Source: a virus
Direction: 5' to 3' (one strand)
IMG/VR virus record: IMGVR_UViG_3300030101_003608
Location: 20,112-84,111 of that record
Length of the DNA stretch: 64,000 nt
Position 1 is the first letter of the stretch. Each line of letters begins with the position of its first letter. A program made the position numbers and the translations under genes. The notes below the pieces were generated by a model. That model did no database searches and was not told where the DNA came from. It worked only from the letters and a program-made list of their open reading frames with translations. Of the stretch, positions 14,958 to 48,035 are shown piece by piece.

Positions 14958-17225
14958 TTAATTACCATAAGGTAATGTACTATATCTTGGTATAAAAGTA
15001 CTAGAATTCACTGATCCTCCATACCTGCTACTACCACCATCAGGATCTGGAGTAGCATTAGGATCTGGAGTACCATCAGGATCTGGAGTAGTTGTAGTAG
15101 TTGTTGGTGCTTGACCCATAGTTGTAGGATCTACATTTGGATAATACTTTGCAAGACATTTAGCAGGATCATTACCTGCGCCTATACAAGCTGATAAACT
15201 TCTTCTTTGCAAGTTTGTTCCTCCTAAAAAGTTACCTAACCAATCATAGTTCTCTGCAGCATTTTCTAATGATTGTTTCATAACATTCATTTTATAAACA
15301 TCCATTGCTCTTTGATCTCTGTTAGCTCTAATTTGATTAATACCAGCTGTCTCTAAATTTTTTGTATTTGCAACAGCTCTATTATAATCTGCATCAAGAC
15401 CTGCTCGCATTTTCTGCTGATTCATTCCAAGTGCTGTTTCATCTTTATAACGTGCAGCACCAAGCATTGCATTTTTATTATACACATCTGTAACAGTAGA
15501 TGCTATAGGACCTGTACTAGCCGCATTTACTTTAGCTATCATAGCTTGTTTTTGACCTTCTGTTAACCCTGACATATTTCTAATATCATTAATCTGTGCA
15601 AGCTGATTACTTTGTTGATTTTGTACAGCTGTTCTATAGTCTAAATAATTTGTTTTTGGTGTAGGCACTATATCCAAACCAACAGGGTCTGGAGTTGCTA
15701 AACGTCTTCTCATAGAAGACATGGGAGGTAAAGCTAAAGGATCACTTTTCTTTTTTTGCTGTATCTCTTCTTCAAACTCTTCTCTACAAAAAGCTTCTTT
15801 AAATCCTGTACACCTTTGTTCTACAGTATAACCTTCAATTCTACCAGAAGCAAGAATTTCTTCAAAAGTCATTTTATTGCTAACAACCCCATCTTTTTCA
15901 CATTGACATCCGTTGTTTTCCTCTGTTTCCTCAACCTCAACATAAACATCCTCTATTGTTTCTTCAAATCTTGATTGATCACCTTTACATCTTTCCCAAA
16001 TTTCCTGAGCCTGTGGACTATTAGGATTTAAGTGAGTTTTTCTACTTCCTGTTTTCTCAAATGCTACATCAGGATCTGTAAGTTGTTCCCAAGTTGCACC
16101 ATCTTTAATCATATCACAAATTGCACCTTCCCATCCTGATGAAGAAGGTCTTCCAGAACTTCTAGCTTCAGAAGCATTTTTTCTTTCTTCCCCAGGAGTT
16201 ATAGTTGTTTCAGACTCAAATCTATCACTATCTGTACGACCTCTAGTTCCTGTACCGGGTAACCTATCAACTTTTTCAGCACGTCTACCCTCTACTGTTT
16301 CACCAGCATCTTGATATTTAGTTAAACCTCCGTTAGCCATAACAAAAGGCATATCATATCCTCCTAGTTCCATACCATAAGCAGCCATAGGCATAGGCTG
16401 TTCCATCTGAGGTGGCATCATTTGCTGTTCTTGCTGCATTGCCATCATCTGTCTAGGATCCATCATAGGTTGCTCTGGAGGAGCCATACCTTGTTGTGGC
16501 ATTGCTACAGGTTGACCATCAGGCATCATAGGAGGCATTCCTTGTGGAGCTTGTGGTTGTTGTTGCATAGCCTGAGCTTGTTGCATTTGCATAGCCTGCA
16601 TCTGTTCAGCCTGAGCTTTTAATTCAGGAATTAAATCTTCTTCAGTAATTCCATTAGCTTCCATGTAAGGTTTAGCTATTTCAGGAATGCCTTGCGGGAA
16701 TCCTTTCTTAGCTTCTTGAGCTAAAGCAAGAGCACCCAACTTCATGACTATATTCTTAATCATGATTTCTGCAGTGTTTCTAGATAATCTATCTGTGTCA
16801 GGATCCATAAGTATAGCTTTATACTTACTGATATCATAAGGCTTTGCAAGTTCTGCAGGAGTATAACTACCTTTAGTCTTACCAAACATTTGTAAGATTT
16901 TAGGGTCTTTTATCTTCATTGACTTAGTGTCACTAAAAATAAAACTATCATCTGGAAGATTCATAGGTACACCACCACTAGAATGTCTAGGGCCTTTTAT
17001 AGTCATATGATCTACTATACCATCTCCTGATATTTGACCTACTACAGTTTCTCCACCTTCTGCTTCTAAGTTAGCTTCTTCTCGTGGTACTCCACCAATA
17101 GTTCTTTTAGGTTTTAAAGAGCCTGTTGAATTCTCATCCATACCTCTACCTAAAGATAATCCATAGTCTACTTGTTGCCCATAGGCAGCTTTTGGTAATC
17201 CTAAACTTTTAATTCTAACTTTCAT
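14958..17225 (-). CDS. Met/Gln-rich virion-associated protein with N-terminal LPKAA motif
   Basis: A 755-residue protein. The N-terminus has LPKAAYG at residues 10-16, a variant of the LPKAQxG motif found in neighbouring proteins. Residues about 35-130 (REEANLEAEGGETVV through LPDDSFIFSDTK) are a conserved-looking block that I recall from phages of aquatic Bacteroidota. Residues about 200-285 are almost only Met, Gln, Pro and Ala. A Cys-containing acidic stretch follows, and the C-terminus is Thr/Pro/Asp-rich, ending with a Tyr-Gly-Gly element. The gene begins 4 bases after the upstream stop. The low-complexity segment suggests a flexible linker or assembly region. Function is unknown; virion location is inferred from the operon. 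Confidence 0.55.
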   Translation of the reverse strand: MKVRIKSLGLPKAAYGQQVDYGLSLGRGMDENSTGSLKPKRTIGGVPREEANLEAEGGETVVGQISGDGIVDHMTIKGPRHSSGGVPMNLPDDSFIFSDTKSMKIKDPKILQMFGKTKGSYTPAELAKPYDISKYKAILMDPDTDRLSRNTAEIMIKNIVMKLGALALAQEAKKGFPQGIPEIAKPYMEANGITEEDLIPELKAQAEQMQAMQMQQAQAMQQQPQAPQGMPPMMPDGQPVAMPQQGMAPPEQPMMDPRQMMAMQQEQQMMPPQMEQPMPMAAYGMELGGYDMPFVMANGGLTKYQDAGETVEGRRAEKVDRLPGTGTRGRTDSDRFESETTITPGEERKNASEARSSGRPSSSGWEGAICDMIKDGATWEQLTDPDVAFEKTGSRKTHLNPNSPQAQEIWERCKGDQSRFEETIEDVYVEVEETEENNGCQCEKDGVVSNKMTFEEILASGRIEGYTVEQRCTGFKEAFCREEFEEEIQQKKKSDPLALPPMSSMRRRLATPDPVGLDIVPTPKTNYLDYRTAVQNQQSNQLAQINDIRNMSGLTEGQKQAMIAKVNAASTGPIASTVTDVYNKNAMLGAARYKDETALGMNQQKMRAGLDADYNRAVANTKNLETAGINQIRANRDQRAMDVYKMNVMKQSLENAAENYDWLGNFLGGTNLQRRSLSACIGAGNDPAKCLAKYYPNVDPTTMGQAPTTTTTTPDPDGTPDPNATPDPDGGSSRYGGSVNSSTFIPRYSTLPYGN

Positions 17226-17229
17226 AGTA

Positions 17230-20200
17230 TTATTCTATAATTTCAATTGAGCCTCCTGCGGCATATATTGCATCTATTTGTTGTGGTGTTAAATCATATA
17301 CACCCCCTACTCTGTATTGACCTCCTCTAGCGCCAACATAATTTATTGATGAAGGTCTTGCACTACTAGATTGAATAGGATCATTAAACTGTGAGTTAAC
17401 CATTGATTGATATCCAGTAACAGCATCAAATCCTTGATTTATATCAGTACTTATATTTGATACTTTAGAATCTGAAGTTTGTTTATTACGGTCAAATTCT
17501 TCTTGTCTACGTGTATCTGCAGCTACACCCCTATCAACAATAAAGTCAGCAAGTCTACTAGCAGTATTAGCTATTAAGGGGTTATTAGTTTTTCTAGCAG
17601 TATTAACTTTAAAATTTTCAGATTTAACTGCGGCATTATAACAGTCACTTCCAACTCGTTGTAACTCAGCTTCTGTACAATCTTCTAAGTTAAAGTCATC
17701 ATCTGAAGTATTTTCAACTAGATTCATATTAACTGCATCCTGATCTCCCATGAAATCAGTATCTATTTCTCCAGCCATAAAAAACTTATCTAAACCACTG
17801 TATATATTTTGACCACCTTCATTAAAGTTATCTTTATTTAAAAATCCTGAATCCTTTCCAGTATAGTAATCTTTAAAACCTTCATACTCGCTACCATCTA
17901 TTTTTCCATCATCATCAAATGTATTTTTATTAGGTGTCCATGTAACATTTAATCTGTCTTTTCCTATCTTTTTATCTTTATACTTTAGATTCATATTAGC
18001 TCCTATGATTCTGTTTCCATCACTATCAAACTGTGCACTTCCATAAGGTTGTGCAATAGTATTAGGTAATCCATCTACTCCTATATATCCAAAAGCAGCA
18101 TCTTTATCACCGTCTTTATGAGATAGCCAATCAAATTGTTTTGGTGCATATATATCTCTCACTGTACCAAGAACACCTCTTAAACCTTTACCTTGAGTAA
18201 TAGGTTCAAATGCTGTTTTAAAATGATCTTTAATTTGACCAAAGACTCCTTTAGATGTAGGATAAACTGTTTCTCTATATTTTTGAACCTCTGCTGAAGG
18301 AGACATTGGTCCTAGTACTGGATCCATCTTAGGTTTCTTAAATGCTCCACCTGGTGCAAAGTAAGGATCTGTAATATCTTTATACATATCTGGATCATCC
18401 ATTTCATCTCCACCATATACATACTTATATAAGTCAGGACTTACTGAACCTCCAAAAGCTACACTAGGAAAAGCACTTCTGTTATAGTCCCTTGGTGAAT
18501 ACTGTTTAGCATTTCCTCCACCAACAAAATCTAAGTCCCATCTTCCATTACCTTTATCTACAATTTTATATTTTTTAGGCTCTTTGATATAGTTACGATC
18601 AGCTCTTTTAAAATACTCTATAGCAGCTTCTTTAGTCTTAGCATTCTTTGCATGCTTATTATCTAATACTTTTTTGTTTTGTTCAGTAGCTTGTTTATTT
18701 ATTTCTTTTGCTCTTTTCTTCTTCTCCTCTATGGTATTCTCTCTCCATCCAGGATAGCTATCAAACCATTTCTTCAGCTTTTCTCCTCCAGGATCATCCT
18801 CATCATAATGTTCATAACCCGAATCTTTAAATATCATTTTATAAATTTCTTCTTTTGAATAACCTTGCTCTAATAGACTATCAATACGTTCATCCCAATA
18901 TGCATTTTCATTCCACTTATATGAATCCGCAGGGACATCAGGATCCCCACCTGCTTTTACATAATCATAAACATCAGTAGGATCTTTTTTCCGCCAAGCC
19001 TCTATAGATTTTTCTTTTTTACTTTTTCCAACATTGTCAGGATGCCATTTACTATCACGGTGTTCATCTTGATATTCTTGAGGCATCTCAGAAAAACTTT
19101 TTGTACCATATTCCTTACCTTGCCAAATAAAAGTTGTAGCTCCAGCATCTCTAGCTGTTCTATATGCTTGTGAGAAAGTCATATCATCTGTAACACCAAA
19201 ATTATCTGCAGAAACTTCAGTAACTTCATTATCTACAACCTCTTGATTCTGTAAAGCTTCAATTCTTTTTTCTTCATTATAATTTGCTATATCTTCTTCT
19301 GTAGCATTAGGTCCTAATACCGCTAAAGCTTCAGCATTTGGATCATTTGGATCTATTACATTTTCATCAGCATTGTCCATATCATCTTCATCATCAAATA
19401 TATCTACAGCATCATCATAAGCCTCTATAGCAGGATCTCGTACTACATCAATAAATTCTTCTGAATCTTCTTTTTCATAATTAGTGTTTTCAACAGGACC
19501 AGCTGGATTTTTAGGACGGTCAACCCATTTATTTGCAGTACTATCCCAAATTAAAGTAGGATCTCCCGTTAAATCATTTAATACTTTTTTAAAATAGTCA
19601 AACTCTGACTGTCCATCATTAGGAGGATTATTCTTAAGCTTTAAAGCTCTATCACTATCATCATTGGCTTCATTAATATCTTTTATAAGAATCTCTGTTG
19701 CTGTAACTCCAGGTATTACTCTAGTACCAATATTTCTTGTTGTATTATATCCAGTACCAGCACTACTAGTTCCAAGAGTTCCTCCAAAACCTGGTAAAGA
19801 AGTATAGTCTAAACCTGATATACCCCACTCTCTTCTACCAAATCCTTTTTTCTTAAAGTAAACATCTACATTAGTATCTTCAAGACCTGTTCCTTTTCTA
19901 GAAAATTCATTAGCTGTATTACGATGACTAAATATTTGAGGCATCATTGAACCTAAATAGTCAGAACCTATAGTAACCATGTCTTTACGAATCTGGTTAT
20001 AATCAGGAGGTAATACACTTTTACCTTCATAAATAGAATCATTTAACTCTTGCCAAGTAAAATCACCTCTTTTTAAACCTTTTCTTAAGGCTTTTCTATC
20101 AGATCTTTCATACGGACTTTGTTTACTAGCTCGTCTTGCTATTCCTCTATTTGTTACTCTTCTTGTCCTCCCACCTTTTCTAAACATTTCTGACTCATCA

Positions 20201-20847: not shown

Positions 20848-20866
20848 GTCTAAAAGTACTTATTTA

Positions 20867-20874: not shown

Positions 20875-20907
20875 TAATTTTTAGTTTAATGTTTAAACAT
20901 TTAATGT

Positions 20908-23900
20908 TTAATCTAATTCTTCTAATATATAACCTCCTTCTATATATTTTTTTACATCTTCTGGAGAAAGATCAGCCTCTACAGAACCTCCTTGCTTATA
21001 AGGTACAATTCGTTTTGTACCTTTTAAAACATCGTCAGGAAGTGTAATTTCCCACCAAGTATTTCCATATTCATCAGTTACTTCTCCAACTTTTGCATTA
21101 GGATACCTTTTTTTCAAGAACTTTTGTAAGGCTTCGTATCTTTCTACTATTTTATATCTAACAGGATCTAATAATTTCCAATAATCATCTTTACCTATTT
21201 TTTCAGGAGTGTCTTTATATTTCTTTAAATAGTTTGTTATTCTTTTACCTTCACTGTTTAGTGTTTTAATTTTATCAACCTCTTCTTCAGTAAAATATTT
21301 AGACTTAAATGTTTTTATCTTTTTAGTGCCTTCACCTGTAGAAACCTCTTCTGTAACATATTGCCATAAAGGTTCATCACTTGTAGCTATATCTACTATT
21401 TCATCAACAGTCAGTTTATTTGTTAAACCACCTGGCCACTCATTAAATAAGCCTACTAGGTTTATTTTGTCATCTTCTGTTAAATTTTTATTAGAAATAA
21501 CAGCTCCAGCTTTATTAATATCTATATTATTATGAATTAATGCGCCAAAATTTACAACATCATATCCAGATTTTGGGACCTTGCTTATATTCTCTAAGGT
21601 ATAATCTTTACGAGTATTATTGTAGCTTGAATAGTCTTGTATTCTATTAGCAGTGCTACCTGTTGGAAATCTTACTTTTTCATATTTACCTGTACTAGCT
21701 GCATAAGCTATAGTTTCTTCAACCATTCGCTCAAAATTATACCTTTGAAACAGTCTAGCATCTGGAGCAACCTCCATTTTTTTCCTAGTCGCTGCAATTT
21801 GATTTGCATTAAAAGATTCAGAAGTAGGGTCAATAGTAAAAAGAGACCTACCTAATGCATCTTCTACACGGTTAATAACTGTCTGTAAGTCTACATCTTG
21901 ATACTTTGTTTTCATTCCATCAGGCAGTTGATCCTTAAATGAATCTCGTATATAGTCAATATCCTTTTGTAATTCTTCATACTTTGTCTTAGCTGCAGCT
22001 CTTTCATTTCTGAGCCCAAAATATATATCATCAAGCACATCATTATACTGCTCACTATAATCCCACATAAACCCATATCCTTCCTCACCTTTTGTTCCTT
22101 TTACCCAATAATTTCTTCCAGTACTATCTTTTTCCCGGGTCCAACCATCCTTATTAAGTAGTTCCTCCCTATCAGCTAATCCTGCATCCGACAGTGGTCC
22201 TTGTGGTCCCTTATACATTGCACTAATGTCATTATTAGCTTGCTTCATGATTTCTACAAATTCATTTACGGCTAACTCGTCCCTCAGCCTTGCTGCTGAA
22301 GTTTGTTTTCTACCTCTGGGCTGTTGACTAAACTCAGATTGAATCTGATTTGAGAATAATGTCTTAGGAACATTAGCTCTTTCAAAAGTATAAACACGTC
22401 CTAATGTCTTATCATCTGCACCATGAGCATCTACTCCAAAAGGAAGTTTGTCTTTATTGTTAAAAACTAACTGTCTAGGATTCTTGGTATAATTTTTACC
22501 GCTTTTTTCAAGGTTTATATCCCAACCTGTCCAATCATTATTTCTAGGTCTACCAATGCTTCTCTGTATTTTTTTTTCATTAATTGTAAAAAGCTTCTTC
22601 TTATCATCTAATTTTGACTTGAGTATATCATATTTATATTCTTCTGCATATAGTTTTTTTCCTGGATCATTATACTTATCTCGTAAACTCAACCAAACTG
22701 GATCACGCTCAAGTATCTCATCTATATTATTTACGTTCACTCCAGGATTAGTCTCAACAATCTTTCTTTCATAATTCTGTACTTCATATTGTATTTCATC
22801 TATCTCAGAGTTAAGGTCTTTGATTCTTGATTCTGATTGACCTATTTGATATTCTAAATCTTCAATCTCAGAATTTATCTGGTTAAGATCTTCAATATCA
22901 TAGTTCATCATACCTGGATCATACTCATTATTAGCAACAAAATCACTCATGCCTGTTTTATATCCACCATAGAGAGGGTTTCCAGTTGTATGTTGCACTT
23001 CTATATTAAGTGGTATAATTGTAGAATTTGCTACATCATTTAATTCATCAAAACTAATTTCTGCAGGTATAGTACCATCATAACGATTTTCTAATTCCTT
23101 TTTTATTCTAGATACTTTTAGTGAAGAAGCAGACTCATCCTTTTCCATTATTTTAAATGCTTTTTCTGTAGATACATTTCCCTCACTATTTTTTAAGTCT
23201 GCAATTTTTCCATTTTCTTCAAGTGTCTTAAATGATCTTTTTGCTTTAGGTTTAAAGGTTTTTGTAAAATCATCATAAATATATCCATCTTTTTCCCAGG
23301 TTTTCATAAATTGACCCGCATCCTTTGGTGCAACAACACCCGTGTGATAATCAGTATTAAATACTATGGATCCATCAGGATTATTTGTAGCATGATGCAT
23401 TGGACTTGCTTCTGTTTTTTGTGCCGGAACTGAAGGTGTCGGCTCTATAATTTTAGCACTAGGTATAACAGGAGAAGTTATGTTAGGAACAGATAAAGAT
23501 TTTGTATTTGATAATAAAGGACCTGGGGCATTAACAACAGTAGACGTACTTTTCATTTGTTGTTGCAAAGGTTTAGTTGCAATAGCCCACTGACCTGAAC
23601 CCGTTGTTCCTTGAACTAAAGGTTTATAATTTGTTAAATTATACTCACTAGCTCCTAATCCAATGTCAATATTCCCTTTATAGTTTTTATAACGGAATGT
23701 AAATGGAAGATTACTTTTATTTAAAAACTTCATAGAAGAAGTTCCTTTACCTAAACCATGTATATATCTACCTGCCTTAAAAGTGTTACTATATAAACCA
23801 GTACCTATTGGTAATGTACCCACAAAAAGTCCATCATAAAAACCTTGACCAAGTTCTATATCATCTAAAGTCTTACCTGTAAATGCTACCTCTGTAAGAT

Positions 23901-25719
23901 CTTTAACTCCTTTTCCAAATTCTTTTGCAGTTTTTCCAGGTTCCTCAAATGCTCTAATAATACTTGCTCCACCAATTTCAGGAATCACTCTAAGTTGAGT
24001 TTGCAAAGTTTGACGTTTTTCTTCAGTACCTAAATCAGATAAAAGTTTCCAATAGCCTGGAAACTCTTCTTTAGTTGTAGCAGGATCAAACCTTGCCCAG
24101 TTATTTTCTTTATAATCATCTGCAAAGTATCTAGTAGCCATAGACTTATCTGAATATCTTCCTTTCTTATTTTTAAGATCTTTTCTTGCTTGTAGATATT
24201 GTTTATACTGTAAGTCCTCATATTCTTTATCCTTATATTCCTTTATGAGACTTTGATATTTATCTATATACTTTTTCCAGTCTTCATCATTATAACCCAT
24301 GGGTAAGTCACCATAACCTCTTAATCCAGCTATAACATGATTCATCATTTCAGCTTGCTCTCTTCTAGCTTTCCATTTTTTAAAAAGACCTTTTTTATTC
24401 TTTCCTCCTGCAATATCTGAAGTTGGTAGATCCATGAAATATCTCATGTCAGGAGCCTGTTTACCAGATAAGATTGCTTCTTGTTCCTCATTTACATTAG
24501 GTGTATCAGGATCATCAAAAATATAATTTGGATTTAGAATTTTTTTATAACCGGATGTTGCTAAATTATACTTACCTTCTGGAATGTCTCTAAAAACATA
24601 ATCTTTATATACATCATCCATGGTAGCTTTGATAAACTTTTTAAATCTTCGTCTATCTGCCCATGTTTCTTTATCTGGACTTTTAGTTTGTACTATTTTA
24701 GCTGATGTAGGTTGTTGATTTGCAGCTTGAAGGGACTTATAAAATTCTTCTAATCTTTGCTCCATAGTTACTGGTGTACCATCAGGGTTCCATTCATAGT
24801 AGCTACCGGACTCAGCCCAATCATCTAAAAACTTATTAAAAGCTTTTCTTTTATCTCTAGGAACTTGAACACCTGATTGAGCTTGTGGTAATGCACCTCC
24901 TTTATATTTTTTAGGTAATGCTTCTTCTTGTTTTTTTGCAAAATACCTGTTAATCCAATCTACTGTAAACTGATTTCTTCGACCCAAAGGTTTGCCACCT
25001 GAAGTTCTAACATGTTCCTTAAGCATTAAGTCTACATCATTGTTTACTACACCTTTTGCAAAGTTTGGAAATTCTTCTATGCCTCCAGCTACATTATATT
25101 GATAATCAGTTAATATTATTTGTTGAGGAACAGAAAGGTTTTCAAAAGTACCTTTTCCATATGTTTTGTTTATATAGTTAGATGCATATTTCTTTTTCTC
25201 CTCGAAAATTTTTCTCATCATGGTATTCATTTCTTCAGTAGTTATACCTTTATACCAATCACGTTTCTTGGATAAACCTGACAATTTTATTCCAGGTCCT
25301 ATATCATATCCTCCACCTTCTTCTGGAGCTGGATAAGGTTTCCATAATTCAGTTATAGGGTCCCACCCAACTTTAGCCGCATTTTCTTGGGAGCGCAGTT
25401 GATTAAAATAATCATTATATATTTCTTTTTCTTTAGCAACCTTAGCAGCTTTTATCATTTTACCGAATAAACCAGTTCCTGCTTTTTTTGCAACCTTTGT
25501 TGCAGGTTTTGCTACAGCTTTTTTCTTAGGAATATTTATTACTTGACCTATAGAAAGATTGCCATAACTAATTCCTGGATTTGCAGCTCTTAACTCAGAA
25601 GGATTAAAACCATTATCATATGCTATATCGTCAAAAGTATCTCCAGATTTTACACTATAACTTGTACCTCCTCCATCTTGAAAACGTCTGGGTAATCCAA
25701 CTATTTGATACTTCTTCAT
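20908..25719 (-). CDS. Giant virion protein with LysM and T4-type lysozyme (GH24-like) domains
   Basis: A 1,603-residue protein. Residues 20-65 form a LysM peptidoglycan-binding domain (YSVKSGDTFDDIAYDNGF through LSIGQVINIP). Residues about 103-275 resemble a GH24 lysozyme: LRSQENA with candidate catalytic Glu112, then GGGYDIGPGIKL, LTDYQYNVAGGIEEF and a basic RNQFTVDWINRYF helix. LPQAQSG follows at 277-283, exactly where the lysozyme ends, suggesting a domain boundary or cleavage point. The remaining ~1,300 residues are unrecognised, with a coiled-coil segment near 910-1010. The C-terminus has the GGYILEELD cassette shared with neighbours. The protein probably opens the cell wall locally during DNA ejection, separately from the lysis amidase. 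The lysozyme call is good; the virion role is inferred. Confidence 0.72.
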   Translation of the reverse strand: MKKYQIVGLPRRFQDGGGTSYSVKSGDTFDDIAYDNGFNPSELRAANPGISYGNLSIGQVINIPKKKAVAKPATKVAKKAGTGLFGKMIKAAKVAKEKEIYNDYFNQLRSQENAAKVGWDPITELWKPYPAPEEGGGYDIGPGIKLSGLSKKRDWYKGITTEEMNTMMRKIFEEKKKYASNYINKTYGKGTFENLSVPQQIILTDYQYNVAGGIEEFPNFAKGVVNNDVDLMLKEHVRTSGGKPLGRRNQFTVDWINRYFAKKQEEALPKKYKGGALPQAQSGVQVPRDKRKAFNKFLDDWAESGSYYEWNPDGTPVTMEQRLEEFYKSLQAANQQPTSAKIVQTKSPDKETWADRRRFKKFIKATMDDVYKDYVFRDIPEGKYNLATSGYKKILNPNYIFDDPDTPNVNEEQEAILSGKQAPDMRYFMDLPTSDIAGGKNKKGLFKKWKARREQAEMMNHVIAGLRGYGDLPMGYNDEDWKKYIDKYQSLIKEYKDKEYEDLQYKQYLQARKDLKNKKGRYSDKSMATRYFADDYKENNWARFDPATTKEEFPGYWKLLSDLGTEEKRQTLQTQLRVIPEIGGASIIRAFEEPGKTAKEFGKGVKDLTEVAFTGKTLDDIELGQGFYDGLFVGTLPIGTGLYSNTFKAGRYIHGLGKGTSSMKFLNKSNLPFTFRYKNYKGNIDIGLGASEYNLTNYKPLVQGTTGSGQWAIATKPLQQQMKSTSTVVNAPGPLLSNTKSLSVPNITSPVIPSAKIIEPTPSVPAQKTEASPMHHATNNPDGSIVFNTDYHTGVVAPKDAGQFMKTWEKDGYIYDDFTKTFKPKAKRSFKTLEENGKIADLKNSEGNVSTEKAFKIMEKDESASSLKVSRIKKELENRYDGTIPAEISFDELNDVANSTIIPLNIEVQHTTGNPLYGGYKTGMSDFVANNEYDPGMMNYDIEDLNQINSEIEDLEYQIGQSESRIKDLNSEIDEIQYEVQNYERKIVETNPGVNVNNIDEILERDPVWLSLRDKYNDPGKKLYAEEYKYDILKSKLDDKKKLFTINEKKIQRSIGRPRNNDWTGWDINLEKSGKNYTKNPRQLVFNNKDKLPFGVDAHGADDKTLGRVYTFERANVPKTLFSNQIQSEFSQQPRGRKQTSAARLRDELAVNEFVEIMKQANNDISAMYKGPQGPLSDAGLADREELLNKDGWTREKDSTGRNYWVKGTKGEEGYGFMWDYSEQYNDVLDDIYFGLRNERAAAKTKYEELQKDIDYIRDSFKDQLPDGMKTKYQDVDLQTVINRVEDALGRSLFTIDPTSESFNANQIAATRKKMEVAPDARLFQRYNFERMVEETIAYAASTGKYEKVRFPTGSTANRIQDYSSYNNTRKDYTLENISKVPKSGYDVVNFGALIHNNIDINKAGAVISNKNLTEDDKINLVGLFNEWPGGLTNKLTVDEIVDIATSDEPLWQYVTEEVSTGEGTKKIKTFKSKYFTEEEVDKIKTLNSEGKRITNYLKKYKDTPEKIGKDDYWKLLDPVRYKIVERYEALQKFLKKRYPNAKVGEVTDEYGNTWWEITLPDDVLKGTKRIVPYKQGGSVEADLSPEDVKKYIEGGYILEELD
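24871..24891 (-). other. LPQAQSG motif after the lysozyme domain
   Basis: Residues 277-283 of the LysM/lysozyme protein read LPQAQSG, a variant of the LPKAQxG motif shared by several proteins here. It lies directly after the last lysozyme helix, at an apparent domain boundary. Confidence 0.6.
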
Positions 25720-25720: not shown

Positions 25721-28700
25721 TTAAATCTCTTTTAATGTATAACCTAATTTTTCTAATTGTTCCTTAGCAGCTTTATCTATATTTACTATATCTCCTAACT
25801 CATGATTTACAGAACCGCCTTCCTCTCTTTTTCTTCTTTTTCCTTTGCTTTGTAATCTTCTATTTAAAGTTTTACTCTTATTTTTTTTCTTTTTTCTTTT
25901 TAATCTTCTTAACCTTCTTTTTTCTTGCCTTAGTTCTTTAGGTGTAGACATATCTAAATCATCATCTTCATATTCTATCTCAGATAACTTTAAGTTAGAT
26001 TGCGGAATAGGAATAGGTTCAATGTTAAGACTTAAGTCTAAATCATTTAATTGACGCACTGACTCTTTTAATTCATTAGCCGAGTTATTAAAAGTCTCTT
26101 TAGCTTTATAACTAGGTAAATCTTCAGGTTTAGGATTTCTTTTATATTTATCATAATATTTAGCAGCATATATAAAATCTTGTAATGTAGGATACATGTC
26201 TTTATCTACATTTTTGTACGCTTCTTTATATGTTGGTTTTATTTCTTTCTCTATTCTTGTTAAAGTTTTAGTAACAAATTTAGGAGGTGTGGGTTTTTTA
26301 TAAAGAGGTCCTAAACTGTAGTCTCCATCATATATATGACTCCAGTATCCTATTGGCTTAACTTTTGCTCCCCATAAACCTGTTCCCTTTAAACGGTTCC
26401 CCATGTTTATAAAATTAAGATATGCATCTATATCTTCTTTTGGAGTATTACCTGGAAAAGCATAATCATATATAAATCCTTTCTTACCTATATAATCAGG
26501 TGGATCTTCAAGATTAAAAGGGACTTTATTAGAATAAGTTTCATCCATGCTTTTCATTCTCGCCTTAAACATACCCTCATCCATATTTCCAAGACCAAAG
26601 GGAAATCCAGTACTAGCATAAATACTAAGACCATGATTATATGCATCTAAACTATCTTGATAAGCTTGCATTGCTTTTCCATCTTGAGCTTTAGGAAGTT
26701 CTATAGTATTATGAGGACGCTCACCTTTCTTATATCTTACTTTCTTTGTTGAAGCATTTTCAATAAGTTTTCCATTTTTACGTCTAATATTTTTATATGA
26801 TTTAATACTTCCATCTTTATATCTACGTGTAACTTCTCTTTCAGTAAATTTAACTCTAGGTGTATCTTCTGTTTTATAAGTAATATCTTTAGTTAAGGTT
26901 TTACTTACTCCTCTATTTGGTCTATATACATCAACTACTTTTCTTTCTCCAAACTCTGTAGATCCTGAATCTTCTTCATAAACTCTTCTATAACCTTTTT
27001 TCTTACGTTCACCTTCTTCCATCTCTTCTAGTATATATCCACCTTTTGCGTATTCTGCAGCTTCATCTTTTGTAAGTTCTATATCTAGAAACATTCCTTC
27101 TTTTGCCATTTGCATATCATCCCCTTCTACTTGTGGAGCTTCATTTTTAGATATATTATTTAACATCCACATTATCTCTTCATCACTGTATGATTTTTTA
27201 AGTTGATCCATAGGATCAAGCCGTTCTCCGTCATAAGGATTTTTTAATCTTTTTAGTTTTTTATAAGCTTTCTTATCTACTTTTTGTGTAAAAGGATCAT
27301 ATATGCCTGCCTTTTGAGCTACTTGTCTAATCTCCATTAATCTTGCTCTAGTCTCAGTGGGTCTTTCAACATAATTCATTGTCCTTTCCTTACGTTTTAC
27401 ATAATCAGGATACTTTTTTTTATACCATTGCCATTGTTTTCTAGGAGTATCTACACCTTCAGGAAACCATCCTTCATCTTCAAACTGTTTTCTTCTTTTA
27501 TACCAAGCAGGACTTCTATAATATTTCTTAGCCGCAGCTTTATCCATATAAGCTATATCAGAATCAGGAATTAACCTACCAGAATTTTCTAAAGATATAT
27601 CTGTAGAATGACTAATCTCATGTATATTGGAATGACCATAATGTTCTAAGTTTTCAGGATTATGACCAACTTGTCCAGAATGTTCAATCCAAGCAATTGG
27701 CTGGTCGGGATCAGGAATTTCTTCATGAGTATCTTGATCATGTATCATTTTCTGTCTATACTTAGGAGCTGGCATATTTGATAAATTAAACATTCTTTGT
27801 TCAGCTATAGATTGAGCACCCCGCTGAGGAGATACTCTTGGTTTACCATCAGCAACATCTTTTTCAAAATCAGCTTCCATTGATTGCATAAGCATTTGCT
27901 TATACATAGGAGAATTCATATAATCTCTAAACCATTGTACATCTTTAGGAAAACTTTCATTAGCTTCTTTAATAGCTTTATTGATTTTTTCTGTTCTTGG
28001 ATATTTTTCAAAATATTCTTCCTCACTAATGCAGTTTTTAGTTTGATGATCATATATCATACCTTCGTTACATGGTGATGACACTCCTTTTTTTGTAGCT
28101 TCTTTAAAAATACGTTTTCTTCTTTTCTCATCTTCTCTCTTATTATAATCTTCTACATCAAAATATATTTTATTATATTTTGAATGTGGATACCAACCTG
28201 TCCACTCTCCAAGTCCTCTAAGTATATCCTTACGGTTTTCATCAGCCCAATTTGTTAAACTCTCATTAGCTCCATCCAGCAAATTCTTATCAGGCTTAGG
28301 CTCTTCAGGTTTTGGAATAGATTGCATATCTATTACACCTGGTATACCAAATTGAGCTTTAGGAAGTTCTCCACCTTCATTTAGCTCTTCTAAAATATAA
28401 CCTCCTTTTGCATATTCATCAGCTTCCTTTTCAGTGAGTTCCACGTCTATAAATTCTAAAGATCCTCCAAGATTTCTTTTAGGTAATGTCTTTATATTAC
28501 CATTATGAGTTCTAGCATATCTAGCCTTATCAGTTTCCATACTAGGTATTAAAGTTCCTGAATATGTTTTACCCTTAAAGTTCCAAGATACATTCCCACC
28601 ATTATCATACATTGGTATTTCATAAACAGAATTTCCCGGAAATTGATAATCATAACCAGGCATCATCATTTGTTGATTACCTTCATCATCAATACCTAAT

Positions 28701-28807
28701 ACAGGATAGTTTACTCCTTTCATAGTTATGCTTCCCCCTACATTTGGAATTAATGTATTCTCTCCAGGAAACTCCCACTGTCCGTATTTACTTTTCTTAA
28801 ATTTCAT
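25721..28807 (-). CDS. Large virion protein with HExxH peptidase motif and two LPKAQxG / GGYILEE cassettes
   Basis: A 1,028-residue modular protein. It starts with a conserved-looking block (YGQWEFPGENTLIP through MYDNGG, residues 8-71). The cassette ELTEKEADEYAKGGYILEEL lies at about 123-142, followed by LPKAQFG at 148-154. A zinc-peptidase-like segment has HEISH at 396-400 followed by RPTETRARLMEIR near 480-492, a pattern compatible with a gluzincin. A second cassette (ELTKDEAAEYAKGGYILEEM) lies near 575-594, and a second LPKAQDG near 704-710. The C-terminus is very basic and ends in a diverged version of the cassette. It looks like two or three protein units fused in one reading frame. It starts at the stop of the tail stabilization gene (one-base overlap). 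Confidence 0.65.
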   Translation of the reverse strand: MKFKKSKYGQWEFPGENTLIPNVGGSITMKGVNYPVLGIDDEGNQQMMMPGYDYQFPGNSVYEIPMYDNGGNVSWNFKGKTYSGTLIPSMETDKARYARTHNGNIKTLPKRNLGGSLEFIDVELTEKEADEYAKGGYILEELNEGGELPKAQFGIPGVIDMQSIPKPEEPKPDKNLLDGANESLTNWADENRKDILRGLGEWTGWYPHSKYNKIYFDVEDYNKREDEKRRKRIFKEATKKGVSSPCNEGMIYDHQTKNCISEEEYFEKYPRTEKINKAIKEANESFPKDVQWFRDYMNSPMYKQMLMQSMEADFEKDVADGKPRVSPQRGAQSIAEQRMFNLSNMPAPKYRQKMIHDQDTHEEIPDPDQPIAWIEHSGQVGHNPENLEHYGHSNIHEISHSTDISLENSGRLIPDSDIAYMDKAAAKKYYRSPAWYKRRKQFEDEGWFPEGVDTPRKQWQWYKKKYPDYVKRKERTMNYVERPTETRARLMEIRQVAQKAGIYDPFTQKVDKKAYKKLKRLKNPYDGERLDPMDQLKKSYSDEEIMWMLNNISKNEAPQVEGDDMQMAKEGMFLDIELTKDEAAEYAKGGYILEEMEEGERKKKGYRRVYEEDSGSTEFGERKVVDVYRPNRGVSKTLTKDITYKTEDTPRVKFTEREVTRRYKDGSIKSYKNIRRKNGKLIENASTKKVRYKKGERPHNTIELPKAQDGKAMQAYQDSLDAYNHGLSIYASTGFPFGLGNMDEGMFKARMKSMDETYSNKVPFNLEDPPDYIGKKGFIYDYAFPGNTPKEDIDAYLNFINMGNRLKGTGLWGAKVKPIGYWSHIYDGDYSLGPLYKKPTPPKFVTKTLTRIEKEIKPTYKEAYKNVDKDMYPTLQDFIYAAKYYDKYKRNPKPEDLPSYKAKETFNNSANELKESVRQLNDLDLSLNIEPIPIPQSNLKLSEIEYEDDDLDMSTPKELRQEKRRLRRLKRKKKKNKSKTLNRRLQSKGKRRKREEGGSVNHELGDIVNIDKAAKEQLEKLGYTLKEI
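26678..26698 (-). other. LPKAQDG motif
   Basis: Second LPKAQxG copy in the 1,028-residue protein, separating the HExxH-containing part from the C-terminal part. Confidence 0.6.
28346..28366 (-). other. LPKAQFG motif following a GGYILEE cassette
   Basis: First LPKAQxG copy in the 1,028-residue protein. It comes six residues after GGYILEEL (the intervening residues are NEGGE), so cassette and motif form one composite unit. Confidence 0.6.
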
Positions 28808-42889: not shown

Positions 42890-42890
42890 T

Positions 42891-43046: not shown

Positions 43047-43069
43047 AATTTGTTGGTTTTAATTTTGGT

Positions 43070-43612: not shown

Positions 43613-43623
43613 ATTAGATGAAA

Positions 43624-43663
43624 TAAAAAAAGGGAGAGGAGAAATTAGATCTCACTCTCCCTT
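43624..43663 (-). terminator. Rho-independent terminator after the 465-residue structural gene
   Basis: A perfect 9-base-pair stem (arms 43630-43638 and 43655-43663) with a 16-base loop that has a further short inner pairing, followed on the minus strand by a run of T. It lies 20 bases after the stop at 43683. Confidence 0.85.
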
Positions 43664-43682
43664 ATATGAGTAATTAATTATA

Positions 43683-45080
43683 TTATACTGCTACAATAAT
43701 ACTTGCAGCGGCACATGCAACACCTGCCTCAGCAGCTTGTGCAACACAGTCATTACCAACAGCATCTGTTACAACTTTAATATCATCTGCAAGATTAACA
43801 AGCTGAGTATTTAATGCAGCACCTGCACCTGTTTCAGCAGCAATCTCAAGTAAGTATTGATCATTATCAAATGTACCTGTTGGATTGTTGTATCTTGGAA
43901 TGCTATGTAAGATAAATAATCTGTCATATAATGCAGTTCTATTTACTTGACCAGCAGCAGTACCTAACATATCATTTCCTTGAGTAATCTCACGGATTCT
44001 TAAGTCAGTTGCAAAAGGAACTTGTCTGTAAGATTCAGATAAGATAAAATCTCTTGCTACAGTCTCACCAAGTCCTTGTGGTTTTCTACCTTTACACTCA
44101 TGCTCAATACATATTCCCGTAAACTCACATGGATCACCATTTAAATCTACTTCAGAAGCAAATAACCTTAGAGGCTCAGTTCCGTAGAAATCTGAAGGTT
44201 GGAAAGTACAATCTCCAAACTTAGTTTCTTCGTAAGCACCAACTAGTGTTAAACCTGCACAATCTCCAACAGCAAATGCTGATGTATATGCATCTACAGT
44301 ACTAATAGTTGGACCAGCACCTTGACCAGTTACAGCTTGAACTGCAGCTTGAGCAGCAGCTACAAATCCAGCAGCAGCTATATCAAAACCTTCTGGATAT
44401 AAAAGTGTAGTTATATGACCAGCAGCAACATCAGCTGCAGAAGCTACACTAACTACAGGAATGATAAATGGAGCTGGATTAGAGTTACCATTAGGACCAG
44501 CACCTGTAAGAATGACACTTTCACTAATTCCTTTTGCCCACTGAATCATTACAAGCGCTGGATCTACAGCAACAGGAGCAACAGCTCCATCTGGACAACA
44601 TCCAGTGTAAGCAGTAATTTCTTGATATGCTTGATGATTTAACATTCTTAATGCAGCAGATCCTTTTACATCTACTCTTAAGTGATAGTTCTCACCACAT
44701 AAGAAAGTTGGACAACAACCAGCATTACCTACAGTACTTGGTGTAGTACCAATATTTAAAATAGACTGTTGAGCAGGATTTGCTTTGTTAGTCCATACTT
44801 TGGTAATAAATTTAGGATTAATACCTTTTGATTTAATTGATTCTGTATATCCACCGTGAAAAGGTCCAACTTTGTCATCTGCATAAGGAGCACCTGATGC
44901 AATAACAAATTGACATTTTGATGGGGTAGCCACATCTAGTGGAGCCCAAGTCTTTGCATCATACAAAGATAATTGTCCTGAAGTTAGTGCACCACTGGCA
45001 GTAGAAGCTGGAGCTACTACAGGATCAACATACGCATCCATAATGAATGTCTTTCTAAAAGCGTGATTAAAATAAGCCAT
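43683..45080 (-). CDS. Abundant virion structural protein candidate
   Basis: A 465-residue protein, Ala/Gly/Thr-rich with scattered Cys (GNAGCCPTFLCGENY, then TGCCPDGAVAP). It starts MAYFNHAFRKTF and ends in AAASIIVAV. It is a single-gene unit with two GTATATTA elements upstream and a strong terminator downstream, the signals expected for a very abundant protein. Only the capsid gene shows a comparable terminator in the head region. It could be a head decoration, head-fibre or major tail component of the virion. I do not recognise the family with certainty. Confidence 0.5.
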   Translation of the reverse strand: MAYFNHAFRKTFIMDAYVDPVVAPASTASGALTSGQLSLYDAKTWAPLDVATPSKCQFVIASGAPYADDKVGPFHGGYTESIKSKGINPKFITKVWTNKANPAQQSILNIGTTPSTVGNAGCCPTFLCGENYHLRVDVKGSAALRMLNHQAYQEITAYTGCCPDGAVAPVAVDPALVMIQWAKGISESVILTGAGPNGNSNPAPFIIPVVSVASAADVAAGHITTLLYPEGFDIAAAGFVAAAQAAVQAVTGQGAGPTISTVDAYTSAFAVGDCAGLTLVGAYEETKFGDCTFQPSDFYGTEPLRLFASEVDLNGDPCEFTGICIEHECKGRKPQGLGETVARDFILSESYRQVPFATDLRIREITQGNDMLGTAAGQVNRTALYDRLFILHSIPRYNNPTGTFDNDQYLLEIAAETGAGAALNTQLVNLADDIKVVTDAVGNDCVAQAAEAGVACAAASIIVAV

Positions 45081-45113
45081 TGTTTTTTGTTTTTAATTTT
45101 ATAAATAAATAAA

Positions 45114-45131
45114 TAATATACTATAATATAC
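45114..45131 (-). promoter_or_regulatory. Double GTATATTA promoter-like element before the 465-residue gene
   Basis: Two GTATATTA cores, at 45114-45121 and 45124-45131, separated by two bases, 34 to 51 bases before the ATG. The distal copy has a TTG exactly 20 bases before TATATT. This is the only duplicated copy in the window. Confidence 0.65.
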
Positions 45132-45160
45132 TAAAAGTTTTTTAATTAATCAAATTAAGA

Positions 45161-45859
45161 TTAATTATTTCTTTCAGCAGTTTGCGAACCTCTTGGATAT
45201 TGTACTGGTGATTCTATATCTCCAGCTAATATACTAACAGCTTCATCAATAATTACTTCAATAATATCATCCTTAAATTCAGATTCTACTTCTACCAAAG
45301 TTTCTTGATTAGTATAAGGATCTACACAACCTTGTATTTGAATTTTTCTAGGTTGTCTATAATAGACTAAGTCTGCTTGTGATATTTCAAATTCATCATT
45401 AGTGTAAATATGAATTTGATTATCAATTAATGTAATAAAAGTTTCTCCCCATTCAAATGAAGGTTGCTTAGATTTATCTCTTAACAATTGATTTAAATTA
45501 CCTTCCTCTGCAAGATATACCGTCATTCTTCTATCTTTACAACAATCCTGACATGCAAATACATCTACTCTTTTAAACTGTAAATAGTTTTCAGGAATAG
45601 ATCCTCGGAAATGATCTTTCTTATCAGTCAATGAAAGTTGATTATCAGAAAGTAATACCTGAAGATCATCTTTTCTTCTAGTAGATTGTTCATCACCTTC
45701 TTTAACAATATTAAGACCATGCAATTGTCTTCTGCACCATTCTACTTGTGCTTTATTAAAAGCCTCAACAGCTTGCCAACATTCTATATTATCATAGTCT
45801 TGACTATCAAGCTTGTTAACTCTTTGTTTTAATTTTATGACTATTGCGCTATTTAACAT
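45161..45859 (-). CDS. Conserved head/tail adaptor-like virion protein
   Basis: A 232-residue protein. Helical N-terminus (VIKLKQRVNKLDSQDYDNIE) with an AFNKAQVEWCRRQLHGLNI block, then a beta-rich region FRGSIPENYLQFKRVDVFAC, QDCCKDRRMTVYLAEEGNLN and PSFEWGETFITL, then a helical C-terminus IIEVIIDEAVSILAGDIESP. The layout resembles head-completion or adaptor ring proteins of podoviruses. A 1-base overlap links it to the upstream small basic gene. It is followed by the double promoter. The adaptor role is inferred from size and fold impression. Confidence 0.5.
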   Translation of the reverse strand: MLNSAIVIKLKQRVNKLDSQDYDNIECWQAVEAFNKAQVEWCRRQLHGLNIVKEGDEQSTRRKDDLQVLLSDNQLSLTDKKDHFRGSIPENYLQFKRVDVFACQDCCKDRRMTVYLAEEGNLNQLLRDKSKQPSFEWGETFITLIDNQIHIYTNDEFEISQADLVYYRQPRKIQIQGCVDPYTNQETLVEVESEFKDDIIEVIIDEAVSILAGDIESPVQYPRGSQTAERNN

Positions 45860-46068
45860 TATTTCTTTTTCTTTCTTAGTTTACCTAATGTAATTGCAAA
45901 TCTAGCACGTTGAGCAGTCTTACCTTTACCCTTAGCTTTTTCTCTAAGCCAAGATTTTTTAATTCTCTTATTCTTTTTATCATAACCACCTTGTCTTTTA
46001 GCAGTAGCTGTAAGAGAACCTGGCTTTTTGATTGCCTTCTTGATATTTAACTTCTTCTTTTGTGCCAT
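45859..46068 (-). CDS. Small lysine-rich protein (69 residues)
   Basis: Very basic, with Lys/Arg making up over a third of residues. It contains KKPGSLTATAKRQ and ends GKTAQRARFAITLGKLRKKKK. The C-terminal RARxAxTLxK pattern is one I recall from small phage proteins of marine and freshwater viromes. Its ATG lies two bases after a possible 21-codon gene, and its stop overlaps the next start. Probable DNA binding; function unknown. Confidence 0.65.
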   Translation of the reverse strand: MAQKKKLNIKKAIKKPGSLTATAKRQGGYDKKNKRIKKSWLREKAKGKGKTAQRARFAITLGKLRKKKK

Positions 46069-46070
46069 TT

Positions 46071-46136
46071 TTAATATTCCCAGTAGATAAAAATTTGATC
46101 ATTTTCTTCTTCTGGTTCTTTAAAAGTTTTATTCAT
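46071..46136 (-). CDS. Possible 21-residue micro-ORF
   Basis: ATG at 46136 and TAA at 46071 encode MNKTFKEPEEENDQIFIYWE plus a final Tyr. It is acidic, unlike its basic neighbours. It starts 5 bases after a GTATATTA element and ends two bases before the next gene's ATG. It may be a leader peptide or a real tiny protein; too short to be sure. Confidence 0.35.
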   Translation of the reverse strand: MNKTFKEPEEENDQIFIYWEY

Positions 46137-46140
46137 ATAG

Positions 46141-46148
46141 TAATATAC
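46141..46148 (-). promoter_or_regulatory. GTATATTA promoter-like element between small basic genes
   Basis: Coding-strand core GTATATTA preceded by seven T, in the 90-base gap between two small basic genes. TGG rather than TTG lies 20 bases before TATATT. It would drive the 69-residue and adaptor-like genes. Confidence 0.45.
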
Positions 46149-46158
46149 AAAAAAATGA

Positions 46159-46431
46159 TCAGCATTTCCATCTTCTCCTAGCTTTTCTCAAACGGCTGTT
46201 TGGATCTTTAGCAGCTTTAGGAAACTTTTTCATTTGACCAAGAGATCTTGCACAATAACTTTTCTTTCTAGCTCCACCACCTGGTTGAGGTGCTTTAAGA
46301 TTAGAGCCAGTCTTTCTATTAATCATTTTACGGCCTTTAGCAGTAAGACCACCTTTCTTAGACTTACAACCATTCTTGATTGTACAGCCTTTCATAGCTC
46401 CTTTTTTCTTACTACTTTTTTTAGTTGCCAT
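46159..46431 (-). CDS. Small Cys/Lys/Arg-rich protein, DUF6321-like
   Basis: A 90-residue protein. PQPGGGARKKSYCARSLGQM and the C-terminal KDPNSRLRKARRRWKC match a family I recall as DUF6321, found in many environmental phages; the number is from memory. Conserved Cys in SYCARS and the terminal WKC suggest metal binding or a disulfide, with the rest poly-basic. Its ATG overlaps the upstream stop by one base. A nucleic-acid-binding or virion-internal role is plausible but unproven. Confidence 0.7.
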   Translation of the reverse strand: MATKKSSKKKGAMKGCTIKNGCKSKKGGLTAKGRKMINRKTGSNLKAPQPGGGARKKSYCARSLGQMKKFPKAAKDPNSRLRKARRRWKC

Positions 46432-46646
46432 TACTTTTTCTTTTTAAGTCTACGCTTATCGTGATTATATCCTTTAGCTTTTAATTCAAGATGCTTTTTC
46501 ATTGTACCAGCCCTAACAGCTTTACCTGATTTTGAATACATCATGTGAGCTTTAAACTTCTTCTTAGCAGTGCTTTTCTTAGCTCCACCTTTTTTCATTT
46601 TAGCCATTTTAGTAGCATCTTTAGTCATTACTTTTGCATATGCCAT
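46431..46646 (-). CDS. Small lysine-rich protein (71 residues)
   Basis: Basic N-terminus (KMAKMKKGGAKKSTAKKKF) and a conserved-looking core HMMYSKSGKAVRAGTMKKHL followed by ELKAKGYNH. The core resembles a short phage family seen beside DUF6321-like genes. One-base overlaps with both neighbours. Function unknown. Confidence 0.65.
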   Translation of the reverse strand: MAYAKVMTKDATKMAKMKKGGAKKSTAKKKFKAHMMYSKSGKAVRAGTMKKHLELKAKGYNHDKRRLKKKK

Positions 46647-46918
46647 TATTTCTTTTTTTTAGTTGTTTTTCTTTTTCTTATAGCACTGGTTCTTCTACCC
46701 ATGCCAACTCTTTTCTTTTCTGCAACAGCTTTTGTCTTTTGTGACTTAGACATAGAACCCCAGGTTCTAGGAGTCTTTTTAGAAATTTTTTTACTAGGTC
46801 TACACTTCTTAGTTTTCTTATTCTTAGAAGAGCCGCAAGGATTTCCTTTCTCATCCTTCCACTTTTCTTTAAACCACCTTTTCAGTGCAAGACCCTTAGC
46901 TGTTTTTCTTACTGCCAT
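46646..46918 (-). CDS. Small basic protein with KWFKEKW and PCGS motifs
   Basis: A 90-residue protein. LKRWFKEKWKDEKGNPCGSS followed by KKCRPSKKISKKTPRTW, MSKSQKTKAVAEKKR and VGMGRRTSAIRKRK matches a recurrent small phage family. Two Cys about 14 residues apart could bind metal. It sits within a chain of one-base-overlapping small genes. Function unknown; DNA binding is likely from charge. Confidence 0.68.
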   Translation of the reverse strand: MAVRKTAKGLALKRWFKEKWKDEKGNPCGSSKNKKTKKCRPSKKISKKTPRTWGSMSKSQKTKAVAEKKRVGMGRRTSAIRKRKTTKKKK

Positions 46919-47109
46919 TATCCTATCTTACCTCTACGTTTTCTACATTTAGCAATATATCCACTTGCATAAGCAGATGGAAATACTCTATACTTAGCCT
47001 TAGCTTTATGATAGCAAGCATCTTTCTTAGACTTTTTTTTCTTAGATCCTCCTTTTCTGAAATATTCTAAAATTTCACCATCAGTATTAATTCTTCCGTA
47101 ACCAGGCAT
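46918..47109 (-). CDS. Small protein with CYHKAKAKYRVFPSAYASG signature (DUF5872-like)
   Basis: A 63-residue protein. DACYHKAKAKYRVFPSAYAS followed by GYIAKCRKRRG is a highly recognisable signature of small phage proteins (DUF5872 from memory). Two Cys flank the signature. The start MPGYGRINTDGEI is close to that of the 156-residue protein (MPGYRKKM). Its ATG is separated by one base from the upstream stop. Function unknown. Confidence 0.7.
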   Translation of the reverse strand: MPGYGRINTDGEILEYFRKGGSKKKKSKKDACYHKAKAKYRVFPSAYASGYIAKCRKRRGKIG

Positions 47110-47110
47110 C

Positions 47111-47341
47111 TTATTTTCTTTTAAGGGTTTTCTTTCTAGGTAAAGTTTTCTTAGGTGCAGCAGATGATTTACCAGCTATAGTCTGTAGTTTTTTAACTTC
47201 AGCCATAGCAGCTTTTCTAATATCAGCCATTAATTTAGTATCCTTTTGGATATCTTGAGCTCTTTGTAAAGTACTCATTGCTGAAGCTACTTCAAACTCA
47301 CGCATTTCTTTTTTAGTCATAGTGTTAGTAAATTTAATCAT
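47111..47341 (-). CDS. Small helical basic protein (76 residues)
   Basis: N-terminal two thirds are predicted helical (EMREFEVASAMSTLQRAQDI, then ADIRKAAMAEVKKLQ), followed by a basic tail APKKTLPRKKTLKRK. Its start overlaps the upstream stop by 4 bases. It has no Cys, unlike its neighbours. Could be an assembly or DNA-condensing factor; unrecognised. Confidence 0.6.
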   Translation of the reverse strand: MIKFTNTMTKKEMREFEVASAMSTLQRAQDIQKDTKLMADIRKAAMAEVKKLQTIAGKSSAAPKKTLPRKKTLKRK

Positions 47342-47553
47342 TTTACTCTATACTGTTTCATAGGTGTAGCTACTCCACCAGTTCTAAGCGTTCTTCCTTG
47401 AATAGTTCTGGGATTATTAGAATACTTAGGCATTGTTTTACCACAACCGCAGCCTCCACCATATTTCATTTTTTTCATCATTTTGAAATCTTGAGCATCA
47501 ATCTTTCCATTTTTGTTTTTGTCCAGTTTATACTGGTTTCCTTTTAGTGCCAT
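47338..47553 (-). CDS. Small protein with a single EF-hand-like calcium loop
   Basis: A 71-residue protein. Residues 11-22, DKNKNGKIDAQD, fit a canonical 12-residue EF-hand loop (Asp11, Asn13, Asn15, Gly16, Ile18, Asp19, Asp22), followed by a Phe and a basic helix. A GGGCGCGK Cys-Gly element follows, then a basic C-terminus. A single EF-hand may bind calcium alone or pair between subunits, as dockerin loops do. Calcium-dependent virion stability is an inference. Start and stop are tightly packed with neighbours. Confidence 0.7.
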   Translation of the reverse strand: MALKGNQYKLDKNKNGKIDAQDFKMMKKMKYGGGCGCGKTMPKYSNNPRTIQGRTLRTGGVATPMKQYRVK

Positions 47554-47564
47554 ATCTTATAATT

Positions 47565-48035
47565 TTACATACATCTTCTACTACCTTTTGGGTTTCTTGT
47601 CCATTGACCACCATGTCCATATTTACCACCCTTTTTCATATTTGTATAGTACTCTGGTTCCGGGCTTGGTTCCTGTGGCCCAAGAGGAATTGGTGGAGGA
47701 TTAAACGGTTGGTCTTTTGGTTCTAGATCTTTAAACTTTCTATTATAGAATTTTTGCATTCTAGCATCTACTCTACCTTTCTTTCTGTCTAATCTAGCAG
47801 CTTGTCTATAAGCTTTTGCTTCTCCTCTCATGTCTTGTCTTGCTTGACGGCCTGGAAACATATTATCTAAGAATGCATCAGCTTTGCTATAAAAATTTTG
47901 AATAGCTTTTCCTGTTTGTCTTCCTGGTTGAGCTTTAGGTAGCTTTTTTTTCATTTTCTTTACTCCACCTTTTTTATAAGCTTTCATACTAGCACCACCT
48001 GTTCCATACATCATTTTTTTTCTATATCCTGGCAT
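47565..48035 (-). CDS. Basic virion-associated protein with LPKAQPG motif
   Basis: A 156-residue protein. Basic N-terminus, then LPKAQPG at about residues 32-38, the same motif as in the giant proteins 20 kb away. A helical region rich in Arg/Gln/Asp follows (QARQDMRGEAKAYRQAARLD), then a Pro-rich linker (PFNPPPIPLGPQEPSPEPE), and a Gly/Lys-rich end with NPKGSRRCM. It is first in the chain of small basic genes. It may be packaged with the genome; function unknown. Confidence 0.62.
   Translation of the reverse strand: MPGYRKKMMYGTGGASMKAYKKGGVKKMKKKLPKAQPGRQTGKAIQNFYSKADAFLDNMFPGRQARQDMRGEAKAYRQAARLDRKKGRVDARMQKFYNRKFKDLEPKDQPFNPPPIPLGPQEPSPEPEYYTNMKKGGKYGHGGQWTRNPKGSRRCM
47922..47942 (-). 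other. LPKAQPG motif in a small basic protein
   Basis: An exact LPKAQ core followed by PG. It lies between a basic N-terminal stretch and the helical domain, far from the other copies, and so links the small-protein block to the giant-protein block. Confidence 0.6.

Follow-up and report, generated by a model that had tools for sequence, protein, structure and literature searches.

A recurrent LPxAxxG motif and an accompanying C-terminal tag in probable virion cargo proteins of a crAss-like phage lineage

Short targeting peptides on packaged proteins have been described in phage T4 and in giant phages. Beyond a handful of models, T4, P22, and N4 among them, little is understood, to our knowledge, about which proteins a phage packs and injects and in what order. 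Here we describe a short peptide motif, LPxAxxG, in proteins encoded by a 64,000-nt stretch (hereafter "the window") from the late region of an uncultured virus (positions 20,112 to 84,111 of the 110,525-base record IMGVR_UViG_3300030101_003608 in IMG/VR). The motif is enriched, specific to certain gene classes, positioned at module seams, and paired with a second element, a "C-tag" of the approximate form L[ST]xxEIxxYxxGGYxxEEL. An earlier note on this DNA had picked out the motif while overlooking the paired tag.

Among the closest described systems is phage crAss001, in which the genes behind gp44 encode cargo proteins stored in the capsid and tail for ejection; the text of the paper describing them mentions neither proteases nor cleavage (PMC10172136). 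The genes studied here occupy the same place in the late operon as those for gp45/C1, gp46/C2, and the RNA polymerase (RNAP)-associated proteins of crAss001, after a muzzle homologue (PMC10172136). The profile of this muzzle-like protein matches crAss001 gp44 at 8e-7 and, far more strongly, proteins of two other phages, Lbo-JY46 and phi4:1. The gene order is kept across 17 IMG/VR relatives picked by capsid similarity: terminase, portal, scaffold-like, capsid, a 339-residue protein, small basic proteins, and a ring protein, followed by fibres, IHF-like, ring proteins, muzzle-like, cargo C, B, A, C1, and then C2 and very large proteins. Thus, the muzzle homologue immediately precedes the cargo genes in the relatives as well, with cargo B being absent or merged in some of them. 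The cargo block here is divided among three or four proteins whose payloads are exchangeable and, unlike in crAss001, whose proteins score no LPxAxxG and no C-tag at tag strength, it carries both elements. A further resemblance is to the polyvalent proteins of phages and conjugative elements, which are likewise very long late proteins with many effector modules and some zincin motifs; in contrast to the proteins described here, a text search of the polyvalent-protein paper for linker and linear-motif terms found no common linear motif (PMC5512222). The T4 capsid targeting sequence and the substrates of SPN3US gp245 provide precedents for short N-terminal peptides on packaged proteins (PMC10052503), whereas LPxAxxG also takes internal and C-terminal positions, and the searches gave no protease to match it.

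The capsid, portal, and terminase proteins show distant matches to Cellulophaga phage phi4:1 and Leptolyngbya phage Lbo-JY46; the crAss-like lineage concerned is a very common, mostly uncultured one. In phi4:1, gp040 and gp041 are annotated in the record as virion proteins from tandem mass spectrometry (MS/MS), and gp040 combines the N-domain of cargo C (9e-8) with the core of C1 (8.5e-6); unlike here, these domains are fused in one protein that lacks both motif and tag. When compared with predicted viral structures, the C1 model comes closest to a structural protein of phi4:1 (E 1.6e-4) with the same length as gp040 (895 residues). By analogy with this distant relative, the motif-marked proteins are most likely virion cargo. 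The cultured phage Lbo-JY46 is also distant, its capsid protein being 28% identical, and has only one strong LPxAxxG copy in its cargo block, in the stretch MKIRIIGLPKAQIGMEEQE; its candidate cargo proteins are XAI97384-XAI97386. Its protein in the C1 position begins MKIRIIGLPKAQIG, the neighbour of this protein ends in a C-tag (24.0 bits), and the next protein along has the cargo C N-domain (3.4e-17).

Six-frame translation of the window placed all five LPKAQxG-type copies claimed in the earlier note in frame on the minus strand. These copies, together with a leader, an N-terminal variant, and the three large cargo proteins, are as follows:

25721-28807, minus strand: cargo C protein, 1,028 residues
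20908-25719, minus strand: cargo B protein, 1,603 residues
17230-20847, minus strand: cargo A protein, 1,205 residues
28346..28366, minus strand: LPKAQFG, residues 148-154 of cargo C, six residues past an internal C-tag
26678..26698, minus strand: LPKAQDG, residues 704-710 of cargo C
24871..24891, minus strand: LPQAQSG, residues 277-283 of cargo B
47922..47942, minus strand: LPKAQPG, residues 32-38 of a 156-residue basic protein (47565-48035)
17178..17198, minus strand: LPKAAYG, residues 10-16 of a 755-residue C1-like cargo protein (14958-17225)
17199..17225, minus strand: N-terminal leader MKVRIKSLG, ahead of the motif in the C1-like protein
25669..25695, minus strand: LPRRFQDGG, N-terminal motif variant in cargo B, directly ahead of a LysM module

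Composition shuffles of the window proteins give an expectation of 0.004 for the pattern LP[KQ]A[QA]xG, against the five copies seen, and the maximum in 2,000 shuffles was one; the suspicion that the recurrence was unlikely to be chance is thereby borne out. In genomes chosen by their capsid gene only, the broader expression [LIVM]P[KQER]A[QKRE]xG was seen 34 times in the cargo block, the large proteins encoded after the muzzle-like gene and before the next virion gene, versus 0.24 expected, and 10 times in the small basic proteins beside the capsid gene, versus 0.09 expected. The same expression was found in none of the core structural proteins and in none of the C2 and RNAP-like giants of these genomes. 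The exact form LPKAQxG is less common, with three copies in the cargo block and four in the small basic proteins. An iterated motif-seeded position matrix run over all proteins of these genomes recovered 87 sites of at least 15 bits, compared with one in shuffled and two in reversed proteins, although some of these sites, which lie in the kept muzzle-like protein (LPKDxDG), are probably not the same motif. A scan of IMG/VR with one codon spelling returned 94 stretches, compared with 6 when the codons were permuted, and 96 of 97 matches lay inside open frames of at least 50 codons. A muzzle homologue is present in 34 of the 36 scan contigs and a C1-like protein in the remaining two, the contigs having been picked for the motif, so that their counts are not independent evidence of its frequency.

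The 194 non-redundant copies fall into 111 contexts without detectable flank similarity, in agreement with the claim that the motif is common to otherwise unrelated proteins. Their consensus is L-P-K/Q/E-A-Q/R/K-x-G, with the alanine at 99% and the glycine at 100%; over the 111 contexts five of the seven positions are highly constrained and a sixth partly so, while the adjoining positions are not. A GG often adjoins the motif, commonly just ahead of it (82 of 194 copies versus about 10 at random). Synonymous codons vary between copies, and a DNA-level repeat is therefore unlikely; one codon table behind this is biased, as many of its contigs were picked through a single codon spelling. In these sequences LPxAxxG has the character of a short linear motif acting at the protein level.

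Three settings recur, namely N-terminal copies after a KxRI-type strand (in C1-like proteins and cargo B), internal copies between modules, and copies in small proteins rich in lysine and encoded close to the capsid gene. The first 30 residues hold 34 of the 137 copies in full proteins, and the rest are internal or C-terminal, a distribution that departs from the N-terminal placement of the T4 type. Nearly all C1-like relatives keep, at their N-terminus, a KxRI-type strand with LP or GG after it, and in the model of the C1-like protein the motif sits in a low-confidence tail (residues 1-30, pLDDT mostly below 50) ahead of a confident domain at approximately 40-225. The LPXTG substrates of sortase, in which the word stands near the C-terminus ahead of a membrane segment, provide no match, the word here being LPxAxxG and the copies mostly N-terminal or internal.

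The second element is found at the ends of many cargo A, B, and C proteins. A C-tag matrix yields 104 sites of at least 16 bits in cargo proteins and none in other classes or in reversed proteins; the matrix was built from protein ends, which makes the count circular for terminal copies and not for internal ones. With a less strict criterion, the tag is present near the end of 59 of the 123 cargo-block proteins, among which C1-like and truncated ones are counted. The copies in the window are:

28382..28456, minus strand: internal C-tag EFIDVELTEKEADEYAKGGYILEEL, cargo C, 24.4 bits
27020..27094, minus strand: internal C-tag MFLDIELTKDEAAEYAKGGYILEEM, cargo C, 20.4 bits
25724..25798, minus strand: C-terminal tag LGDIVNIDKAAKEQLEKLGYTLKEI, cargo C, 12.8 bits, a divergent form
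20914..20988, minus strand: C-terminal tag GSVEADLSPEDVKKYIEGGYILEEL, cargo B, 20.4 bits
17236..17310, minus strand: C-terminal tag VGGVYDLTPQQIDAIYAAGGSIEII, cargo A (1,205 residues), 39.8 bits

Of about 26 distinct internal copies of the tag, 8 have an above-threshold motif in the next 15 residues, and many of the rest precede a weaker version of it, such as LTKAxxG or KFQDGG. The order of elements thus often reads tag, motif, next module. Pairs of related proteins illustrate this arrangement: a 324-residue protein in one relative (G042) stops at its C-tag, and the related N-terminal module in another (G013) has an internal C-tag followed by LPEAQDGG. Similarly, the LysM module that starts cargo B of the window after LPRRFQDGG is internal in a further relative (G015), where it follows a C-tag and KDGGG.

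That the motif lies at module boundaries, as the earlier note held for at least two copies, is supported by the distribution of BLAST similarity along these proteins. Similarity ends at -30 to +10 residues of 46 of the 85 internal motifs, where random positions give 16 and not one of 500 trials reached 46, with a weaker excess of similarity starts (23 of 85 versus 17; 21 of 500 trials as high). The Pfam domains recognized in six cargo proteins comprise LysM, YkuD, SLT, amidase, lysozyme, SET, GNAT, PG_binding, and metallopeptidase-like versions, none of which spans a motif or tag; one protein of 1,757 residues holds SET, GNAT, and PG_binding, and another combines SLT with a metallopeptidase-like match. 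In cargo B, Pfam and PDB sequence searches recognized only LysM, at residues 21-64, and the "lysozyme domain" formerly placed ahead of residue 277 was not recovered by either. Two small elements recur near the motif. A CPxGxxxDxxxxxCV-like cysteine element is carried by cargo C (25721-28807), in the stretch VSSPCNEGMIYDHQTKNCI, and is also present in cargo proteins of contigs L294, L306, L314, and L276, with four of six distinct copies lying at most 40 residues after an LPxAQxG motif. The other, W.WKAADGG.DV.TCHKCGG, stands directly ahead of LPKAQxG in several cargo proteins (L202, L212, L234, and, in a shorter form, G012).

The reading that we prefer, and regard as plausible, is that LPxAxxG serves as an address or connector code, marking module starts in proteins that are most likely packed in the virion; the motif itself would be bound by a conserved assembly partner. 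Docking is favored over processing because the motif is common to separate proteins of one likely compartment, because it occurs in N-terminal, internal, and near-C-terminal positions, and because no matching known protease was found. Candidate partners are the portal, the inner capsid, and another cargo protein, any of which might take up LPxAxxG in extended form, and the swappable payloads (LysM, transglycosylase, amidase, L,D-transpeptidase, SET, GNAT, and metallopeptidase-like) would be recruited, or held in order, for ejection. With somewhat greater reserve, we suggest that the code might have two parts, LPxAxxG at module starts and L[ST]xxEIxxYxxGGYxxEEL at module ends, which would plug interchangeable effectors into the virion for delivery to the host.

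Several observations weigh against the address or connector code. The cargo proteins of phi4:1 and crAss001 are without the motif, its binding partner remains putative, and virion proteomics was not found for any motif-bearing phage. The C1 domain has no fold match in the PDB, and homology to crAss001 gp45 is not established: hhalign gives a probability of 1.4% with the core, and a BFVD protein named "Cargo protein 1 compact domain" is matched at E 0.43, prob 0.30. BLAST of C1 against cultured phages gave no match. In-frame fusions of cargo A and C1 are mixed in this respect: the leader, now internal, is kept in L225, L197, and the related L274/L177, and is lost or decayed in L306, L387, and L272. 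Its retention suggests that the leader works, or is tolerated, internally; its loss suggests that the phages concerned do not need the two proteins to be separate. We had taken tag loss in the first such fusion seen (G045) as an argument against cleavage, and dropped it when six further fused proteins proved mixed.

The strongest competitor, which we rate as unlikely while retaining it as a candidate, is that LPxAxxG is a cut site, with a phage peptidase cleaving there or close by, either as the head matures or once the proteins have been injected; the giant cargo proteins would then be polyproteins and the leaders propeptides. Internal copies lie between modules, often right behind a sequence that elsewhere forms a natural C-terminus (GGYIVEE-LPKAQxG), as in a processed polyprotein, and a zincin-like HEAWH recurs in giant RNAP-like late proteins of many relatives. 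Zincin processing has been proposed for phage polyvalent proteins (PMC5512222), and in giant phages prohead proteases take off N-terminal propeptides of as few as 20 residues (PMC10052503). Against this, the S78 prohead protease was detected in none of 14 genomes with controls working, and MPTase-PolyVal (PF18818) exceeded its cut-off in none of 14 records, with one weak match in phi4:1; this peptidase is not a requirement for all polyvalent proteins. The motif is unlike the AxE site described for SPN3US (PMC10052503), and a cut at the C-terminal copy VPKAKYGMVMRKK in G005, which is followed by the stop, would free only a few residues. The 339-residue protein encoded after the capsid gene (48054-49073), which is kept in relatives and related to crAss001 gp33, was considered as a prohead protease and finds no support as such, its model, of modest quality, being helical with a short RecA-like match in the PDB. 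The earlier note had offered a peptidase site and a packaging tag as alternatives: the confinement of the motif to cargo-type and small head-region proteins fits the latter, and cleavage stays a candidate; no known prohead-protease family was found (the S77 search, also negative, lacked a working control). Of the HExxH domains cited in its favor, both are present, HEISH in the 1,028-residue cargo C and HERAH in a 1,174-residue protein, but neither matched a peptidase family in the Pfam searches, and the HEISH type recurs in only some relatives' cargo proteins. The HEAWH motif itself maps to G000:C1:20086-24984, which overlaps the low end of the window, and to relatives; a second zincin-like region in a giant protein, HEFAH, has no Pfam family match.

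It is less probable still that the motif is a mere evolutionary seam, a flexible linker spread by module shuffling with neither partner nor cutter. The position of the motif at module seams, the adjoining GG, and the similarity ends described above are what such a linker would leave. A linker of this kind sits poorly with the constraint on the motif positions over 111 unrelated contexts, which stops at their neighbors, with the variation of synonymous codons, and with the standalone N-terminal copies kept in C1-like proteins where no seam exists. Chance recurrence of a simple peptide in lysine- and glycine-rich proteins, despite the low complexity of some cargo proteins, is refuted by the shuffled and reversed controls and the permuted-codon IMG/VR scan, and we give it practically no credence.

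No description of the motif was found in the open-access literature by searching for the motif string and related terms, subscription papers being outside that scope. If it predicts cargo from sequence, the motif could serve to catalogue the effectors injected by a phage group that is abundant and mostly uncultured, for which Lbo-JY46, as a cultured relative, offers a testable handle. Were the motif sufficient for loading, it would amount to a naturally occurring plug-in system for delivering proteins into bacterial cells.

In genome collections the capsid protein has a single match, on a contig (L324) in a metagenome-assembled genome labelled Campylobacteraceae; this label may be a binning artefact, and no host is assigned from it. 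Between the 339-residue protein and the ring protein, the window encodes a run of small lysine- and glycine-rich proteins of 63-156 residues (45859-48035), which may be internal head proteins.
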